Positions 25,324 through 32,188 of a stretch of DNA of 64,000 nucleotides are shown here, one piece after another; position 1 is the first letter of the stretch; each line of letters begins with the position of its first letter. The DNA comes from Streptomyces sp. NBC_01235. Its GTDB lineage: Bacteria; Actinomycetota; Actinomycetes; Streptomycetales; Streptomycetaceae. The translations under genes and the position numbers were made by a program. Under the pieces are notes generated by a model, which was given only the letters and a program-made list of their open reading frames with translations, was not told the DNA's origin and ran no database searches. The stretch is taken from NCBI RefSeq assembly GCF_035989285.1, contig NZ_CP108513.1, forward strand, positions 10,416,001 to 10,480,000, in the 5' to 3' direction.

Positions 25324-25644
25324 ATGGGATTCGCCGTCTTCGTGACCTTGCCCGGGCTGGTCATTCTGCTCACCGCCGTGGCCTTCGCCGACCAACTGCT
25401 CCTCCGTGCCGGGCGGGCCGGATGGCTGCCCTGGCGGAACAGCGTCCGGCAGGGCCAGATATCGGCGACCGGGTTCGAGCAGCTCCATGCGAGCTTCTCG
25501 CCGGGGAAGCAGAGTGAACTGAAGGAGCGCCAGTCCGCACTGGTGATGCGCGACGACGAGGAGGACGGCGCGCCGCCGCACCGGACGACGGTGGACCTGG
25601 AGGAAGGATTCGCGGTCGTTCGGATGCCCCGCGCCGACCGGTAG
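25324..25644 (+). CDS. DUF6191-type small membrane protein
   Basis: A 106-residue protein. One N-terminal transmembrane helix (FAVFVTLPGLVILLTAVAFA) is followed by a polar part with LPWRNSVRQGQISATGFEQL and HASFSPGKQSELKERQS, the pattern of the DUF6191 family in streptomycetes. Function unknown. GATACT a few bases before the ATG and no ribosome site suggest a leaderless transcript. Confidence 0.7.
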   Translation: MGFAVFVTLPGLVILLTAVAFADQLLLRAGRAGWLPWRNSVRQGQISATGFEQLHASFSPGKQSELKERQSALVMRDDEEDGAPPHRTTVDLEEGFAVVRMPRADR

Positions 25645-25690
25645 CCGTGACGCGGCGGGCCGGGCTCAGACTCGGGTTCCGGCGCAACAG

Positions 25691-25718
25691 CCCAGCCACA
25701 TGAGCCCAGCCACATGAG
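25691..25718 (+). repeat. tandem duplication of a 14-bp unit
   Basis: CCCAGCCACATGAG occurs twice without a gap, in the short non-coding stretch before the aldo/keto reductase gene. Likely slippage; no function suggested. Confidence 0.8.
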
Positions 25719-25758
25719 CCCCGGCGAACCCGCCCGCCTTCCCTCTAGAGTCCTGATC

Positions 25759-26751
25759 ATGGAGAACAGGACGCTGGGGCGAACGGGCAGGCAGGTCGGG
25801 GTCGTCGGGCTCGGGGCCTGGCAGCTCGGCGACGGCTGGGGGCAGGTCGACGAGGCGGACGCGCTCGGCACGCTGCGGGCGGCGATCGAATCGGGCGTGA
25901 CCTTCATCGACACCGCCGACGAGTACGGGGACGGCCGCAGCGAGCAGGTCATCGGCACACTGCTGCGCTCGTACGGCCGGGCGGGCGCGGGTCAGCCGAC
26001 CGTGGCGACCAAGATGGGCCGGCGCGTGGCCCAGGACCCGGCGAACTACAGCGCCGCCAACTTCCGTGCGTGGACAGACCGTTCGCGGCGCAACCTCGGG
26101 GTCGAGCGGCTCGATCTGGTGCAACTGCACTGCCCGCCGGGCCCGGTGTACGCGAGCGACGCGGTGTTCGACGCCCTCGACGCGCTGGTCGAGGACGGCA
26201 CCGTCGCGGCGTACGGCGTCAGCGTCCGCACCTGTGAGCAGGCGCTGGCCGCCATCCGCCGCCCGAACCTCGCCACGGTCCAACTCGTCCTGAACGCCTT
26301 CCGGACCAAGCCGCTGGAACAGGTGCTGCCCGCCGCGGCGGAGGCAGGCGTCGGCGTCATCGCGCGCGTGCCCCTGGCCAGCGGGCTGCTCTCGGGGCGG
26401 TACACGGCCGACACCGTCTTCGGCGCGGACGACCACCGCACCTACAACCGGCACGGGGAGGCCTTCGACGTCGGCGAGACCTTCTCCGGCGTGGACTACG
26501 CGACCGGCCTGACGGCGGTGGAGCGGCTCCGCCCGCTGGTGCCCGAGGGCGTGACGTTGGCTCAGTTCGCGCTGCGCTGGATCGTCGACCAGGAAGCGGT
26601 GAGCGTGGTCATCCCCGGCGCCCGCAACGCCCGGCAGGCACACGCGAACGCCGCCGCGGCCGCGCTGGCGCCCCTGGACCAGGACACGCACAAGGCCGTA
26701 CAAGAGGTCTACGACGAGCTGATCCGCCCCCAGATCCACCACCACTGGTGA
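25759..26751 (+). CDS. aldo/keto reductase
   Basis: A 330-residue TIM-barrel reductase. The catalytic tetrad is present: Asp and Tyr in DTADEYGDG, Lys in ATKMGRR and His in LVQLHCPP. A C-terminal NADPH-binding stretch (VVIPGARNARQAHAN) follows. It reduces carbonyls; the substrate is unknown. The start is fixed by a leaderless-type promoter: TAGAGT (25746-25751), 7 nt, ATG. It converges with the acyl-CoA oxidase gene 28 bp away, with no clear terminator between. Confidence 0.9.
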   Translation: MENRTLGRTGRQVGVVGLGAWQLGDGWGQVDEADALGTLRAAIESGVTFIDTADEYGDGRSEQVIGTLLRSYGRAGAGQPTVATKMGRRVAQDPANYSAANFRAWTDRSRRNLGVERLDLVQLHCPPGPVYASDAVFDALDALVEDGTVAAYGVSVRTCEQALAAIRRPNLATVQLVLNAFRTKPLEQVLPAAAEAGVGVIARVPLASGLLSGRYTADTVFGADDHRTYNRHGEAFDVGETFSGVDYATGLTAVERLRPLVPEGVTLAQFALRWIVDQEAVSVVIPGARNARQAHANAAAAALAPLDQDTHKAVQEVYDELIRPQIHHHW

Positions 26752-26779: not shown

Positions 26780-28762
26780 TCACACCACGGCCGGCCGGGA
26801 CGGCATCCCCTCGTCCCCGTCGCTCCGGCGCGAGCCGCCGTTCCGTATGAGGGGGAGGGCGTCGAGGTACTGGGGCGGGAGGTCGAACGCGTCGGTGAGG
26901 GTGGTGAGGTGGGGCTGGAGGCTGTGGGTGAGGGCGTCGATGGTGGCGGGCAGCTGGTGGACGTGGTGGGGGGCGATGTGGTCGTCGGCGAGGAGCGTCC
27001 CGGTGTGGGGGGCGAGATGCGTGAGGAGGAAGAGGGTGGTGAGTTCGGTGAGGAGCTGGTGCGTGGGCTGATGGCTGGTGTGGGCGAGCGTGGCCAGGAG
27101 GGTGTCGGCCGCACGGACGGTGGTGTGCGCGTGGGCTCTCTGGAGGGCGGGCGTCGAGGCCGTGTTCCAGCGGGCCTGGGGATCGTGGGCGGGGCCGTGA
27201 CGGAGCGCGCTGTGGGCCTGGGCGTGGAAGGCGTGCTCGGTGTGGGCGAGGAGGTTGCGGAGGTAGCGGGGGTTGGTGAGGTGGGGCGGACCGGGGTCGG
27301 CGATGGGCGCGGCCGGCGGATGGTGGAGGAGTTCGGCGGCCGCCTTGGTGGTGATGAGGAGGTTGTCGCCCTCGGCGGTGATGGTCCCTTCCACGTACTC
27401 GGGGAAGCCGGCCAGGTGGTTGGCGGGAAGGAGGCCCTGTGCTCCGCAGCGCTCGCGGGCTTCGAGGGTGATCGTGCGGGCCTGCCAGGTGATCCAGGCC
27501 TTGGTGAGGGCGATGAGACGCTCGACGTGGTCGCGGTCGTCGGCGGTCCGACGGCTCCATTGAGCGGTGAGGGAGCGGTGGAGCAGGGTCATGGCATAGG
27601 CGGTGGCGACGGCTTCGAGGAGCCTGCTGTGGTGGGTGCGGTGCGTGTTGATGGGGATGCGCCGCCCCGGCCGGGACCCGCTGACATGGCGCTGGTTGCC
27701 GTACTGGACGGCGATTGCGAGAGCGGCCCGCGAGGCGCCGATCGCTGCGGCGCTCATGCAGAGTTTGCCGGCGGTGACGCGGGCGATGGAGGTCAGGAAG
27801 CGTTTACGGCGGTTGCCGAGCACGCTGGTGAGGGTGTTGTCGGGGTTGAGCCGACCGTGTTCGCCCTGGAGCAGCGCCTGGCGGGGGAGGGGGAGATGGT
27901 CGAACGAGGTGAGGCAGTGGTCGACGGGGGCGTTCGGGCGGAGCGGGAGGGGGGTGATGGTGATGTGGGGCAGGGGGCCGTTGTGGTCGGTGAGCGGGGT
28001 CAGAAAGAGGAAGACGCCCTGGTCACGGCCGTCGATGAGGAGGCGGGCGGCGACGACGGCGGACTTGGGGCCGCCGAGGGTGCTGGTGTTGGGCATGAAC
28101 TTGGCGGCGCCGGGGTGGGGGGTGTGGAGGATGAAGCCGCCGGTCTCGGGATCGAGGTGGGCGGTGGTCTCCAGGGCGGGAGCGTCGTTGCCGTGGTCGA
28201 CCTCGGTGCACAGGAAGGTGCCGGTGCGCTGGAGGGCGGTGAACTCGGCGAGGTCTCTCGGCGGGCTGTTGTCGTGGTCCAGAAGGCTGCCGAGAAAGAG
28301 GTTGTAGTGGATGCTGGCGACGGTGGTCAGCCCTCCGCCTCCGTCGACGATCGCCGCCCACTCGTGAAGGGCGGTGAGGAGGGCCGGGTCGGCGGCGAGG
28401 GCTTCGGGGTCGCCGAGGGTGTCGTTGACCAGGCGCAACCAGGCATAGGACTGCGCGGCACGCTGTTCGGGGGTGAGGTCGGGCTGATGGCGGAAGGTGT
28501 CCTGGGCGATGAGGCGGCGCCATGGCGCGTGGACGCGTTCCCGCTCGCCGTCCTGGTCGAACAGCAGCCGGGTCAGTTCGCGGGCCGTCGCGGCGGCCCG
28601 CACCGAGTCGTCAGGGGGTGGGCTGTGAGCGGCCGCGTCCCCGATCGGGCCATGGGCGGCGGCGTCCCCGGCCGGGTCCGGCGGGGAGACCTGGCCTGGG
28701 GCGTGGTCGGCACGGTGCGGCCCGGTGGGGCGCTCTCCGCTGTGGAATGCCAGAAGGGCCAT
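26780..28762 (-). CDS. aco: acyl-CoA oxidase, putative butenolide (avenolide-type) hormone biosynthesis
   Basis: A 660-residue acyl-CoA oxidase/dehydrogenase-fold protein: an N-terminal extension, then the helical and beta core (TVASIHYNLFLGSLLDHD, GTFLCTEVDHGNDAPALET, FMPNTSTLGGPKSAVVAARL, SIARVTAGKLCMSAAAIGASR, EARERCGAQGLLPANHL) and a long helical C-terminal domain rich in His, Thr and Pro. Such enzymes put a 2,3 double bond into acyl-CoA and give H2O2. At the S. avermitilis avenolide locus, as I recall it, aco lies divergent to the receptor gene avaR1 followed by the P450 cyp17; the same order occurs here. Its promoter contains an ARE-like site (28822-28851). Confidence 0.85.
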   Translation of the reverse strand: MALLAFHSGERPTGPHRADHAPGQVSPPDPAGDAAAHGPIGDAAAHSPPPDDSVRAAATARELTRLLFDQDGERERVHAPWRRLIAQDTFRHQPDLTPEQRAAQSYAWLRLVNDTLGDPEALAADPALLTALHEWAAIVDGGGGLTTVASIHYNLFLGSLLDHDNSPPRDLAEFTALQRTGTFLCTEVDHGNDAPALETTAHLDPETGGFILHTPHPGAAKFMPNTSTLGGPKSAVVAARLLIDGRDQGVFLFLTPLTDHNGPLPHITITPLPLRPNAPVDHCLTSFDHLPLPRQALLQGEHGRLNPDNTLTSVLGNRRKRFLTSIARVTAGKLCMSAAAIGASRAALAIAVQYGNQRHVSGSRPGRRIPINTHRTHHSRLLEAVATAYAMTLLHRSLTAQWSRRTADDRDHVERLIALTKAWITWQARTITLEARERCGAQGLLPANHLAGFPEYVEGTITAEGDNLLITTKAAAELLHHPPAAPIADPGPPHLTNPRYLRNLLAHTEHAFHAQAHSALRHGPAHDPQARWNTASTPALQRAHAHTTVRAADTLLATLAHTSHQPTHQLLTELTTLFLLTHLAPHTGTLLADDHIAPHHVHQLPATIDALTHSLQPHLTTLTDAFDLPPQYLDALPLIRNGGSRRSDGDEGMPSRPAVV

Positions 28763-28821
28763 GACCCTCTCCCCGTTGTCGCAGATCCGGAAGCTGGATG
28801 TCTGGATGTGCAGTGAGCCAG

Positions 28822-28851
28822 AAGATACGGACCTACCGGTTTTCTTATCAA
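28822..28851 (-). promoter_or_regulatory. aco promoter overlapped by an ARE-like hormone-receptor site
   Basis: On the minus strand: TTGATA (28846-28851), 18 bp, TATCTT (28822-28827). Spanning this on the plus strand, 28824-28849 has GATA and TATC at its ends and the core GACCTACCGGTTT (28830-28842). That core is like the autoregulatory elements bound by ArpA/ScbR-type receptors, and is shared (11/13) with the receptor's own promoter. Confidence 0.65.
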
Positions 28852-29070
28852 GTCAGAAATCGGCAAACTGTGGCAGCGCTGATTGGCGAGATTTGAGGGG
28901 TGCCTGGGCCGGAAGAGCGGAACAGTTACGCCTGGTGTGATCAGGGGCCGGCGGGAAACGGGAGGCGGGGCGGGAACTCCGGCAGGGATTCCGGGGATTG
29001 TGCCGGTGAGCGCCGCTCGGGGCGCTGAGGGGCGGAGGGCTGCGGGGCGTGGGGCGCGGCGCCCGCGAGG

Positions 29071-29098
29071 TGGCAGGAGACAGACCTGCCGGTATATT
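29071..29098 (+). promoter_or_regulatory. receptor-gene promoter with ARE-like site
   Basis: TGGCAG (29071-29076), 16 bp, TATATT (29093-29098). The core GACCTGCCGGTAT (29083-29095) lies between and over the -10. It matches the aco site at 11 of 13 positions. The location fits repression of the receptor by itself. The rest of the 379-bp gap (28763-29141) shows no gene. Confidence 0.6.
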
Positions 29099-29141
29099 TT
29101 CCGGAGCCGGAATCACGGGGAGCTACCTCGGAGGTGGGGGC

Positions 29142-29825
29142 GTGGCGCTGCAGGAACGGGCCGTACGGACGAGGCGGGCAGTCCTCGTCGCGGCCGCGGC
29201 GGTGTTCGCGGAGGTCGGGTACGAGGCGGCGACGATCGCGGAGATCCTGGCCCGGGCCGGGGTGACCAAGGGGGCTCTGTACTTCCATTTCTCCTCCAAG
29301 GAGGAGCTCGCGCAGGCTGTTCTGGCCAGCCAGCTGGAGGCGGTTCCGGCCGTGCCCGCACGGGAGTTGATGCTCCAGCAGGGACTGGACGAGGCGTTCG
29401 TGCTCGCCCATCTGCTGTCGGTGGGTGATCCGCTGGTCCAGGGGAGCATCCGGCTGACGGTGGATCAGGGGATGCCCAGTGACAAGCTGGACCGGCGGCT
29501 GCCGATGAGCGGGTGGATCGCTCACAACGCGGACGTGCTGGGGCGGGCGAAGGAGAAGGGCGAACTGCTGCCGCATGTCGACGTGGCCGCCGCCGCGTGC
29601 ATGTTCGTGGGGGCGTTCACGGGCGTACAGGTGCTGTCCAAGATCATGACGGGGCACGCGGACCTGCCGGAGCGGGTGGCGGACCTTCAGCGCCATCTGA
29701 TGGCGGGGATCGCGGTGCCGGCGGTGCTTCTGCAGCTGGATACGGCTCCGGACCGGGGCGCCAGGGTCTACGAGGAGGCAGTGAAGGCCAGTTGGGGGGC
29801 GGGGGCGACTCAGGCGGCCGGTTGA
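29142..29825 (+). CDS. gamma-butyrolactone/butenolide receptor (ArpA/ScbR/AvaR-type TetR repressor)
   Basis: A 227-residue protein. The N-terminal helix-turn-helix is close to ArpA/Scb[51 protein letters not shown]. The ligand domain (about 65-205) keeps family features such as [45 protein letters not shown]. These proteins repress hormone-synthesis and antibiotic genes until a diffusible hormone binds. GTG start behind a GGAGGTGGGGGC ribosome site. Divergent from aco and followed by the P450 gene. Closest functional analogy: AvaR1. Confidence 0.88.
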
Positions 29826-29830
29826 TCGCC

Positions 29831-29851
29831 CCACCGGCGGGAGGCCGGTGG
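29831..29851 (+). terminator. terminator hairpin behind the receptor gene
   Basis: A perfect 8-bp stem CCACCGGC / GCCGGTGG with a 5-nt loop, 5 bp after the stop codon. It should separate the receptor transcript from the P450 gene. Confidence 0.6.
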
Positions 29852-30033
29852 CGGTGTGGTGGCGGTCGGGTGGTGAGGCGGTGGTTGGGTTCGGGGCGGC
29901 TGGGGGAGTGGTGGGGGTGAACGGTCGTCCGGGGCGTCGTCGTGCGTCCTGGGCGGGGAGGGCGGGGGAAGCCCCTTTCTCCTGGGCAAGCGCAAATGCC
30001 GATGTGTGCAAGACGAACCCAGGGAGTACGACG

Positions 30034-31269
30034 ATGGATACGACTGCCTGCCCTTATGCCCTGGACGTGACGGGGCGTGATCTCGCCGGAGAGGCGGCGA
30101 TGCTGCGGGCCAAGGGACCGGCTGTCCAGGTGGAGTTGCCGGGCGGTGTGGTGGCCTGGGCGGTGGTGCGGCAGCAGTACGTGGAGCGGCTGCTGACCGA
30201 TTCGAGAGTGTCGAAGGACGCGCGCCTGCACTGGCCCGAGTTCATCGAGGGGAGGATCACCCAGGAGTGGCCGCTGTATCCGTGGGTTGCCAACGAGAAC
30301 ATGCTGTTCGCCTACGGTGCCTCGCACACCCGACTGCGCAGGCTGGTGGCGGGGGCGTTCACCGCGCGGCGCTCGGAGGCGATGCGGCCGCGGGTCGGGC
30401 AGCTCGCGGCTGAACTCGTCGACGGGCTCGCGGCGACCGATCAGGGCGCGCCGATCGACCTGCGGGCCTCGTTCGCCGAGCTGCTGCCCATGCGCGTGAT
30501 CTGTGAGCTGTTCGGGGTCGCGCAGGGCGAGGCCACCGATGCCCTGTGCACAGCGCTGCACACGGTGTTCGGTACGACTATCAGCGGGCAGGAGATCGAG
30601 GCGGCGCGGCTGGAGGCCTTCGTGCTGCTGTCGGAGCTGGTGAAGGCCAAACGGGCCGAGCCCGGCGACGATCTGACGTCGTTGCTGATCGAGGCCCGCG
30701 ACCAGGACGACCGGCTCAGCGAGGAGGAGCTGCTGGGCACCCTCTTCCTCATGATCGCCGGCGGCCAGGACACCACCGCCGCCCTGATCACGAACGCGGT
30801 GGGGGCGCTGCTGCGGTGGCCCGAGCAGTTGGACCACGTGCGGGCGGGGCGGGCGACCTGGCAGGACGTGGTCGCCGAGACCATGCGGGTGCACACCCCC
30901 GGGGCCTACTCGCCGATGCGGTTCGCCGTCGAGGACATCGACCTGGACGGAGTGCTGATCCGCAAGGGCGAGGCCATCCTCGTCTCCTTCGCGGCCGGAG
31001 GCCAGGACCCCGAGCGCTACGGACCGCACGCCGACCGGTTCGACGTCCTGCGCAAAGACCGCGACAGCCTCGGCTTCGGCCACGGACCTCACCGCTGCAT
31101 GGGAGCCCCGCTCGCCGGGGTGGAGGCGGAGAGCGCCTTCGCCGCGCTCTTCGAACGCTTCCCCCGGATGGAACTCGCCTGCGCGCCGGAGGAACTCCTG
31201 CCGCTGCCCAGCTTCCTGATGAACAGTTACCGGTCGCTTCCCGTGCTGCTCGCTCCCGCGCACGCCTGA
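30034..31269 (+). CDS. cytochrome P450, putative butenolide hormone biosynthesis (cyp17-like position)
   Basis: A 411-residue soluble P450. I-helix oxygen-binding motif AGGQDTT, K-helix ETMR, and heme loop [18 protein letters not shown] with Cys355. All key residues are intact. In avenolide synthesis a P450 (Cyp17) oxidises the acyl chain made with the help of Aco; here the P450 lies between two receptor-type genes exactly as cyp17 does. It could alternatively act on another metabolite. The ATG at 30034 has a weak GGGAG ribosome site. A strong terminator follows. Confidence 0.88.
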
Positions 31270-31315
31270 CCAGGGACCCATCTCGCCCGCCAGACGAGCG
31301 TTTTCGCCCGGGTGA

Positions 31316-31343
31316 CGCTGCCGGACCGCCCGGTCCGGCAGCG
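31316..31343 (+). terminator. strong terminator behind the P450 gene
   Basis: A perfect 13-bp stem CGCTGCCGGACCG / CGGTCCGGCAGCG with a 2-nt loop, 46 bp after the P450 stop. The stem is nearly a 28-bp palindrome, so it could also bind a protein, but its position favours termination. Confidence 0.75.
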
Positions 31344-31420
31344 CCCTCATCGGCGGCGTCCGCGCAAGGCAGACCGCAACGGGTGGACAGCAGACGAACA
31401 GGCCCGCACCGAGGCTAAAA

Positions 31421-31440
31421 ATACCGAACGCGCGGTTTAC
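31421..31440 (+). promoter_or_regulatory. ARE-like element upstream of the second receptor gene
   Basis: ATACCGAACGCGCGGTTTAC has ACCG and CGGT half-sites around a central CG, like butyrolactone-receptor operators, in an otherwise GC-rich leader. It lies 95 bp upstream of the start codon. A weaker match than the two sites near aco. Confidence 0.4.
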
Positions 31441-31534
31441 TCCGGGGTGTTCCTGATGGGATGCTCTCCACGTTTCGGCGGGGCGCAGGGCGCGGCCTTG
31501 CGTTGTCCGTGCGGGCCGGGTGGGGGAGGAAGGC

Positions 31535-32188
31535 ATGATGGTCAGGCAGGCACGGGCGGTTCGCACGCGCCAGTCCCTCGTCCGTGCGGCGGCCGAGGTG
31601 TTCGCCGCCGAAGGCTACGCGCGGGCGTCGCTTCCCGCCATCAGCGAACGGGCCGGTGTCAGTACCGGGGCCCTGCATTTCCATTTCGCCAGCAAGGACG
31701 ACCTCGCCGCGGCGGTGGAGAGATCGGCGGCGGACTCCGTGGAGAAGCTGGCGGAGCGCTGTCGCAGCGGGGCGGACACGCTGCTGCAGTCACTCGTGCA
31801 CACGGCCAGCAGCCTGCTGCTGGCGGTGGTCGCCGATCCCGTGATCAGGGCGGGTTTCCGGCTGAGCGATGATCCCTCCCGCAAGAACGGGGCGCAGATG
31901 CTGCGCTGGTGGCAGGCGTGGGTGCACGATCTCGTCGTCCAGGCACAGAACGAGGGGGAGCTCGCGCAGGACGTCTCGGCCGAGGCCGCGGCGACCGTGA
32001 TCGTGGCGGCGACGGCCGGATTCGAGGTGCTGGGCTCGGCGGACCGCGAGTGGCTGTCGGCGGAGCGCATGACGCAGTTGTGGACGTTCGTCCTGCCACG
32101 GCTGGCGGCCTCACCGGACCCGGCTCCGTTCCTGTCGGAAATCGGCGCGGCCGTGGACGAACGGACGGAACAGGCTCGGACGGCGTAG
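31535..32188 (+). CDS. second ArpA/ScbR-family TetR regulator (possible pseudo-receptor, AvaR2-like)
   Basis: A 217-residue protein. The helix-turn-helix again matches the hormone-receptor class: VRQARAVRTRQSLVRAAAEV, LPAISERAGVSTGALHFHFA, SKDDLAAAVE. The C-terminal domain (about 65-205: TASSLLLAVVADPVIRAGFRL, RWWQAWVHDLV) diverges from the first receptor, so it may sense another ligand or none, like ScbR2-type pseudo-receptors. The position after the P450 matches avaR2. The ribosome site GGGGGAGGAAGG supports ATG 31535; a second ATG follows directly. Confidence 0.82.
   Translation: MMVRQARAVRTRQSLVRAAAEVFAAEGYARASLPAISERAGVSTGALHFHFASKDDLAAAVERSAADSVEKLAERCRSGADTLLQSLVHTASSLLLAVVADPVIRAGFRLSDDPSRKNGAQMLRWWQAWVHDLVVQAQNEGELAQDVSAEAAATVIVAATAGFEVLGSADREWLSAERMTQLWTFVLPRLAASPDPAPFLSEIGAAVDERTEQARTA

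Follow-up and report, generated by a model that had tools for sequence, protein, structure and literature searches.

In Streptomyces sp. NBC_01235 a stretch of 64,000 nucleotides (the window; contig NZ_CP108513.1, positions 10,416,001-10,480,000), situated near one end of the 11.09-Mb one-contig genome, carries a four-gene locus that we read as an avenolide-type butenolide quorum circuit of the self-amplifying kind, with a probability of about 0.92. The locus comprises genes for an acyl-CoA oxidase (aco), a hormone receptor (R1), a cytochrome P450 and a second receptor (R2), and the encoded circuit very probably produces and detects a hormone like avenolide. The reading is founded on the likeness of R1 to AvaR1, on the best oxidase and P450 matches lying in loci of the same make-up, and on the conservation of gene order and strands, pocket residues and operators. 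An earlier note on this DNA had proposed a locus of this type, and tests made on sequences (relatives, pocket residues and operators) support it. The features, in window coordinates, are as follows.

26780..28762, minus strand: aco, acyl-CoA oxidase of 660 amino acids, proposed to be butenolide-forming (Aco type), assigned by ACOX domains and EGDN motif
28825..28842, minus strand: operator (ARE) of aco, exact consensus, 63 bp before the aco ATG
29078..29095, minus strand: weaker ARE-like site upstream of R1 (47 bp from its GTG), with 2 mismatches
29142..29825, plus strand: R1, AvaR1-type butenolide receptor/repressor of 227 amino acids with a GTG start, assigned by NF041196 and the AvaR1 structures
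30034..31269, plus strand: CYP17-type cytochrome P450 of 411 amino acids, proposed hormone side-chain oxidase, assigned by PF00067
31421..31438, minus strand: operator (ARE) of R2, palindromic and exact consensus, 97 bp upstream of the R2 ATG
31535..32188, plus strand: R2, second ScbR-family receptor of 217 amino acids, putatively of pseudo-receptor type, assigned by NF041196 and its residues

The aco gene is divergent from R1, which is followed on the same strand by the P450 gene and R2. All four frames are open with no internal stops, their GC content at third codon positions is high (0.87-0.91) and none of them contains a TTA codon. The likely starts are ATG 28762 (aco), GTG 29142 (R1), ATG 30034 (P450) and ATG 31535 (R2), each preceded by a purine-rich stretch that may be a ribosome-binding site, and the outer limits of the locus are the ends of aco (26780) and R2 (32188). 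The gene types, order and directions claimed in the earlier note are thus confirmed by open frames, domain matches and correct outer limits, and the P450 key residues that it called intact (Cys355, Glu282/Arg285 and Thr247/Thr248) are present.

The receptor R1 and its relation to AvaR1

R1 scores 200.7 bits against NF041196, the model of ScbR-family autoregulator receptors (cut-off 150). Its best match among solved structures is AvaR1 (6wp9/6wp7, E 5e-92, 310 bits), ahead of the γ-butyrolactone receptor 5xaz/5xay (280 bits for 5xaz), which we take to be JadR3, and this order of matches argues for the avenolide-type reading. R1 and AvaR1 are 65% identical, with 38 of 50 positions equal in the DNA-binding domain and 108 of 173 aligned positions equal in the ligand domain. 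In the receptor tree R1 belongs to a large R1 clade together with AvaR1 (97/98) but stands outside the AvaR1 subclade.

Sixteen positions of the DNA or ligand site, taken from PMC7347384 or lying beside such positions, were compared; residue labels in that paper are not uniform, some differing by one, and the numbering used here fits Gln64, Thr108, Trp127, Thr131, Thr162 and Gln165. R1 equals AvaR1 at 15 of the 16, and the lactone contacts Gln64, Thr108, Trp127, Thr162 and Gln165 are kept, the first three being described as conserved receptor residues (PMC7347384). The exception is position 131, where R1 has Asn in place of the Thr131 that in AvaR1 is reported to contact the C10 hydroxyl of avenolide (PMC7347384). 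Of 46 R1 relatives (one contig entered twice, three distant rows left out), 34 have Asn at this position, 8 have Thr and 4 another residue, and by this count Thr131 is not a defining residue of the R1 family.

Asn131 lowers the likelihood that the hormone is avenolide itself. The earlier note had called the receptor ligand domain divergent, which could not be confirmed since the pocket is almost entirely kept, and in view of the residue table we rejected a divergent ligand domain as a sign of a new hormone. As the pocket is conserved, pocket divergence is a poor basis for expecting another hormone, and only position 131 hints at one. Among the relatives, three loci (L034, L036 and L073) have an R1 with Arg instead of His at position 130, at the pocket base, and that of S. 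echinatus (L044) contains two R1-type receptors (78% and 68%) and an R2-like one.

The best oxidase and P450 relatives come from similarly composed loci

The aco product matches PF22924 (60 bits) and PF01756 (ACOX, 54 bits), both over the cut-off, and its EGDN motif (Glu464) is invariant in 64 of 64 aligned oxidase rows, its own included. It is 85.9% identical to the oxidase of the yr375 locus and 53% identical to two oxidases of the S. avermitilis-like clade; in the oxidase tree it is joined by yr375 and then by a set of 12 close relatives, and the S. avermitilis-like loci (L078-L083) constitute a separate clade. The P450, encoded directly behind R1, matches PF00067 with 102 bits, and its best solved relative is CYP154A1 (1odo). 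It is 93% identical to the yr375 enzyme, 72-76% to those of four species of the butenolide table of PMC7347384, and 67-68% to two P450s of the S. avermitilis-like clade; its CYP17 type was judged from such relatives.

Related loci were fetched by means of the oxidase (43, with 20 added, giving 63). An R1 relative is found beside the oxidase in 45 of them (44 distinct, L035 and L088 being the same contig), accompanied by the P450 in 42 and, within the fetched stretch, also by an R2 relative in 34. Order and strands agree in 41 of the 42 three-gene loci according to a strict script, and the 42nd (L081) has the same order by gene prediction; in L033 and L037 the contig ends before the P450 position.

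An oxidase relative at E 1e-30 occurs in 119 of 295 drawn Streptomyces genomes, and an AvaR1-like receptor at E 1e-65 in 54 of 392; S. avermitilis itself was not found among the drawn genomes, the best AvaR1 match being 88%. When the 295 genomes, NBC_01235 included, were ranked by oxidase, 29 of the best 30 loci had an adjoining R1 relative (L018 had none). The 39 best P450 places, compared with the R1 matches by eye, all lie on the same contig as an R1 match and about 4 kb or less from it, with the P450 in the opposite direction in one (G257), and the first P450 place away from R1 is the 40th, at 59% identity. The finding named in the earlier note as speaking against such a locus, best oxidase and P450 matches outside butenolide-type loci, was not borne out in these genomes. 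One genome (G129:C1) has receptor and P450 twice with the same scores, at 0.41 Mb and 8.11 Mb, near both contig ends; the twin copies fit a terminal repeat, and in one of them the oxidase is matched in part.

The company that R1 keeps bears also on a different explanation, by which R1 would sense a γ-butyrolactone made by an AfsA of the strain, and aco and the P450 would belong to lipid metabolism merely controlled by R1. The genome does contain AfsA-type synthase genes, R1 also resembles the γ-butyrolactone receptor 5xaz, and lactone-site residues are common to butenolide and butyrolactone receptors (PMC7347384). However, these synthase genes are found only at 1.106 Mb (L098) and 2.051 Mb (L099), not beside R1, each with its own adjoining NF041196 receptor, whereas R1 stays with aco and the P450 across relatives. 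In studied systems extracts of the scyA1 oxidase mutant (PMC7670052) and of the snbU P450 mutant (PMC7554373) have lost the power to free the receptor from DNA, and an activated S. albus mutant fell silent in its secondary metabolism once the oxidase was deleted (PMC5575351). We therefore consider this explanation very unlikely. A further ScbR-family receptor is encoded at 8.401 Mb, with no AfsA match near it.

Operators of the locus

The consensus operator of AvaR1 and AvaR2 is AWWCCRBBHDDNMSGTWT (PMC5744401). It occurs exactly at 7 places in the genome, two of which, before aco and R2, are in this locus, and the aco site has its core in common with the operator of aco in the AvaR1-DNA crystals. 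A stricter pattern, AWACCRNNNNNNMSGTWT, has 4 places genome-wide, 2 of them in the locus (5 strand matches versus 2 for the reversed pattern). With up to 2 mismatches the window contains 12 sites versus 5.8 expected, a number reached in 2 of 100 shuffles. In the relatives the gap between aco and R1 has a site with 0 or 1 mismatch in 44 of 45 loci and an exact site in 32 of 45, compared with shuffle means of 0.42 (maximum 2) and 0, respectively, in 60 dinucleotide shuffles. Upstream of R2 a site of this quality (0 or 1 mismatch) is present in 22 of 34 loci, the shuffle control covering the aco-R1 gap only.

Conservation of this kind has also to be set against the possibility that the locus is a silent relic, its genes intact and no hormone made. 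Wild-type S. albus J1074 transcribes its aco and P450 homologues poorly (PMC5575351), which favours this possibility; against it, all four reading frames in NBC_01235 are intact and conserved, as are the key residues and the operators, and the identity of R1 (95%) and P450 (93%) to yr375 suggests selection. Silence of the locus appears highly improbable to us.

Genome-wide, sites with at most 1 mismatch give 61 strand matches versus 21 for the reversed pattern, so a good part of them may be due to chance, and we claim no regulon from the operators. Outside the window there are 57 such places, of which 56 were examined in 54 loci (that at 8.409 Mb was left out); a crude gene finder predicted a gene start within 350 bp at 26 of the 56. 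One of the 7 exact operators lies inside a 3172-amino-acid open frame (L103:5673-15191; G000 9.956-9.965 Mb) that may be a gene or a shadow frame and has no Pfam match at 1e-8.

The second receptor R2

R2 scores 184.4 bits against NF041196 (cut-off 150), and its best solved match, AvaR1, reaches 88 bits only. In AvaR1 numbering it has Ala64, Ser108, Thr161, Ala162 and Glu165 and is hence without Gln64, Thr108, Phe161, Thr162 and Gln165, a loss shared by the second receptors of six S. avermitilis-like loci. It falls, apart from R1, into a 36-row clade (96/97) that it shares with other second receptors, and from its residues looks like a pseudo-receptor lacking the lactone contacts. AvaR2, called a pseudo-receptor, is nevertheless reported to respond to avenolide and antibiotics (PMC6930871), so R2 may still bind the hormone, which speaks against a simple pseudo-receptor reading.

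The likeness of R2 to AvaR2, whose sequence was outside the comparison, is judged by the lost contacts, and the names of its homologues (120 of 359 matches listed) gave no help on its identity. In S. avermitilis the genes are numbered aco sav_3706, avaR1 sav_3705, cyp17 sav_3704, avaR3 sav_3703 and avaR2 sav_3702 (PMC5744401). The match to this order drawn in the earlier note therefore stands for the locus type and fails in one detail, as by gene number avaR3, not avaR2, is next to cyp17. R2 occupies the slot behind the P450 that AvaR3 has there, but its features speak against identification as AvaR3: it lacks the 75-amino-acid extra stretch reported for AvaR3 (PMC5744401), its length is within that of its relatives, and its residues resemble those of pseudo-receptors. 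No match to R2 at E 1e-30 was found in the records of LUP30, S. rishiriensis NBRC 13407 and S. humidus (L034, L036, L073); a 76% R2 relative (P0009) from an S. rishiriensis, perhaps another strain, is among the matches listed and speaks against plain loss of R2.

Comparison with known systems

A similarity network combined with this same synteny yielded 90 putative butenolide loci in PMC7347384. Three close relatives of the window locus, yr375, LUP30 and S. rishiriensis NBRC 13407, appear in its table; by eye, 14 of the 43 named loci of our first set bear a strain or species name found there, these three among them. The nearest named relative found is the tabulated putative locus of yr375 (SAMN04487983_101173/4/5, PMC7347384 Appendix table 2; L035), which has aco, R1, P450, R2 and a possible kinase gene beyond them in the same order, with identities of 86% (aco), 95% (R1), 93% (P450) and 85% (R2). 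Its R2 operator is identical and its R1 site is alike, with 2 mismatches, whereas its aco operator has 1 mismatch, compared with 0 in the window. The two loci also differ in that in yr375 a methyltransferase gene adjoins aco, whereas in the window an aldo-keto reductase gene and a DUF6191 gene stand between. The only literature found to join avenolide with yr375 is PMC7347384, and the papers listed for butenolides in Streptomyces mirabilis, a species of its table, do not concern this locus as far as titles and the start of abstracts tell.

The avenolide locus of S. avermitilis likewise combines aco and a CYP17-type P450 gene with several receptor genes and has operators of the AvaR1 consensus; its Aco, Cyp17, AvaR2 and AvaR3 were compared through S. 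avermitilis-like relatives and not directly. It differs in having three receptors, compared with two in the window locus, and in Thr131 of AvaR1, where R1, outside the AvaR1 subclade, has Asn. AvaR1 represses aco, avaR1 (co-transcribed with cyp17), avaR2 and avaR3 (PMC5744401).

An oxidase and a P450 with an adjoining receptor are likewise found as ScyA1/ScyR1 (S. cyaneogriseus), orf18/tylP/orf16 (S. fradiae) and spbR/snbU (S. pristinaespiralis); S. albus J1074 has an oxidase and a P450 too (XNR_2339/2340), with the nearest avaR1 homologue elsewhere in the genome. Genetics ties these four systems to an extractable signal, antibiotic yield or an avenolide-like compound. The spbR/snbU and tylP genes are part of antibiotic-cluster regulation, whereas none of the 16 genes scanned for domains, out of 51 predicted in the window, is an antibiotic-cluster gene. 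ScbR-family receptors and ARE operators also serve AfsA-based γ-butyrolactone systems and butenolide systems of the SRB and SAB type; the butenolide synthases of both these types are AfsA-like as well, and the window locus has no such synthase.

Several observations weigh against the avenolide-type circuit. The candidate R1 operator departs from the consensus at 2 positions, and one relative (L058) has aco and R1 with no CYP17-type P450 nearby. In 18 of the 63 loci the oxidase is 48-52% identical and no close R1 relative adjoins, so the oxidase alone is no proof of such a locus; three of the 18 have a distant R1 relative (33-36%) further off, and gene contexts vary among the seven examined. 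No operator-bearing antibiotic-cluster target was found, and of the proteins scanned, 4 of the 32 listed next to operator places and one open reading frame containing a site, none is an antibiotic-cluster regulator. Studied relatives deviate as well: in S. cyaneogriseus scyR1 transcription needs ScyA1, and silencing of ScyR1 left scyA1 expression unchanged (PMC7670052); S. pristinaespiralis gave more antibiotic when the P450 SnbU was lost (PMC7554373); and butenolide 4 of S. albus by itself failed to induce antibiotics (PMC5575351). The simple loop thus need not hold in every member.

The 18 loci without a close R1 (L060-L069, L071, L074, L092-L097) represent a second class of Aco-like oxidase, and in L097 an operator of exact consensus is found some 310 bp upstream of the oxidase gene.

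Neighbouring genes

The scanned neighbours include genes for an aldo-keto reductase, a S-adenosylmethionine (SAM)-dependent methyltransferase (PF04672), a pyridine-nucleotide reductase and a Ser/Thr kinase; the possible kinase gene beyond R2 has weak domain matches, below the cut-off. The DUF6191 and aldo-keto reductase genes occupy 25324-26751, between the methyltransferase gene and aco; in yr375 and four other loci (L008, L033, L037, L073) the methyltransferase gene adjoins aco without such a reductase. The aldo-keto reductase (25714-26751) was considered as a hormone-tailoring enzyme and rejected as unsupported: the gene is common, 31 of 61 Streptomyces genomes (its own included) having a relative at E 1e-90 or better, and among 75 loci, many with only a 1.5-kb flank, it was matched only in the two copies of the window locus (L001, L003).

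Proposed mechanism and meaning

From the observed sequences, gene order, operators and orthology we infer the chemistry, binding and regulon of the avenolide-type circuit. By analogy with S. avermitilis, Aco would oxidise an acyl-CoA precursor towards the butenolide and the P450 would hydroxylate or oxidise its alkyl tail. R1, probably on one transcript with the P450, would repress through the exact, conserved operators upstream of aco and R2 and through the weaker site at its own promoter. Once at threshold, the hormone would enter the R1 pocket and release R1, turning aco on, so that the signal amplifies itself by positive feedback; R2 would be induced simultaneously and, without lactone contacts, would most likely be a pseudo-receptor brake on the same operators. 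A more specific proposal, which we put forward tentatively and hold somewhat less probable than its negation, is that the hormone is related to avenolide and differs from it in the tail, by another C10 oxidation or branching, the Asn131 pocket being the commoner form and Thr131 the exception, and that R2 provides a second input on the same operators for an antibiotic or other ligand.

The circuit type is already established, the locus is a further intact member of it near a strain already in print, and no general view is changed by it. Residue 131 may sort hormone tails. With two AfsA loci and their receptors besides the aco locus, the strain may run two γ-butyrolactone systems side by side with one butenolide system, that is, three hormone circuits in parallel. 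In nanomolar amounts such hormones can activate antibiotic clusters (PMC6930871), and the intact locus therefore marks NBC_01235 as a strain that might be wakeable by hormone or by deletion of R1.

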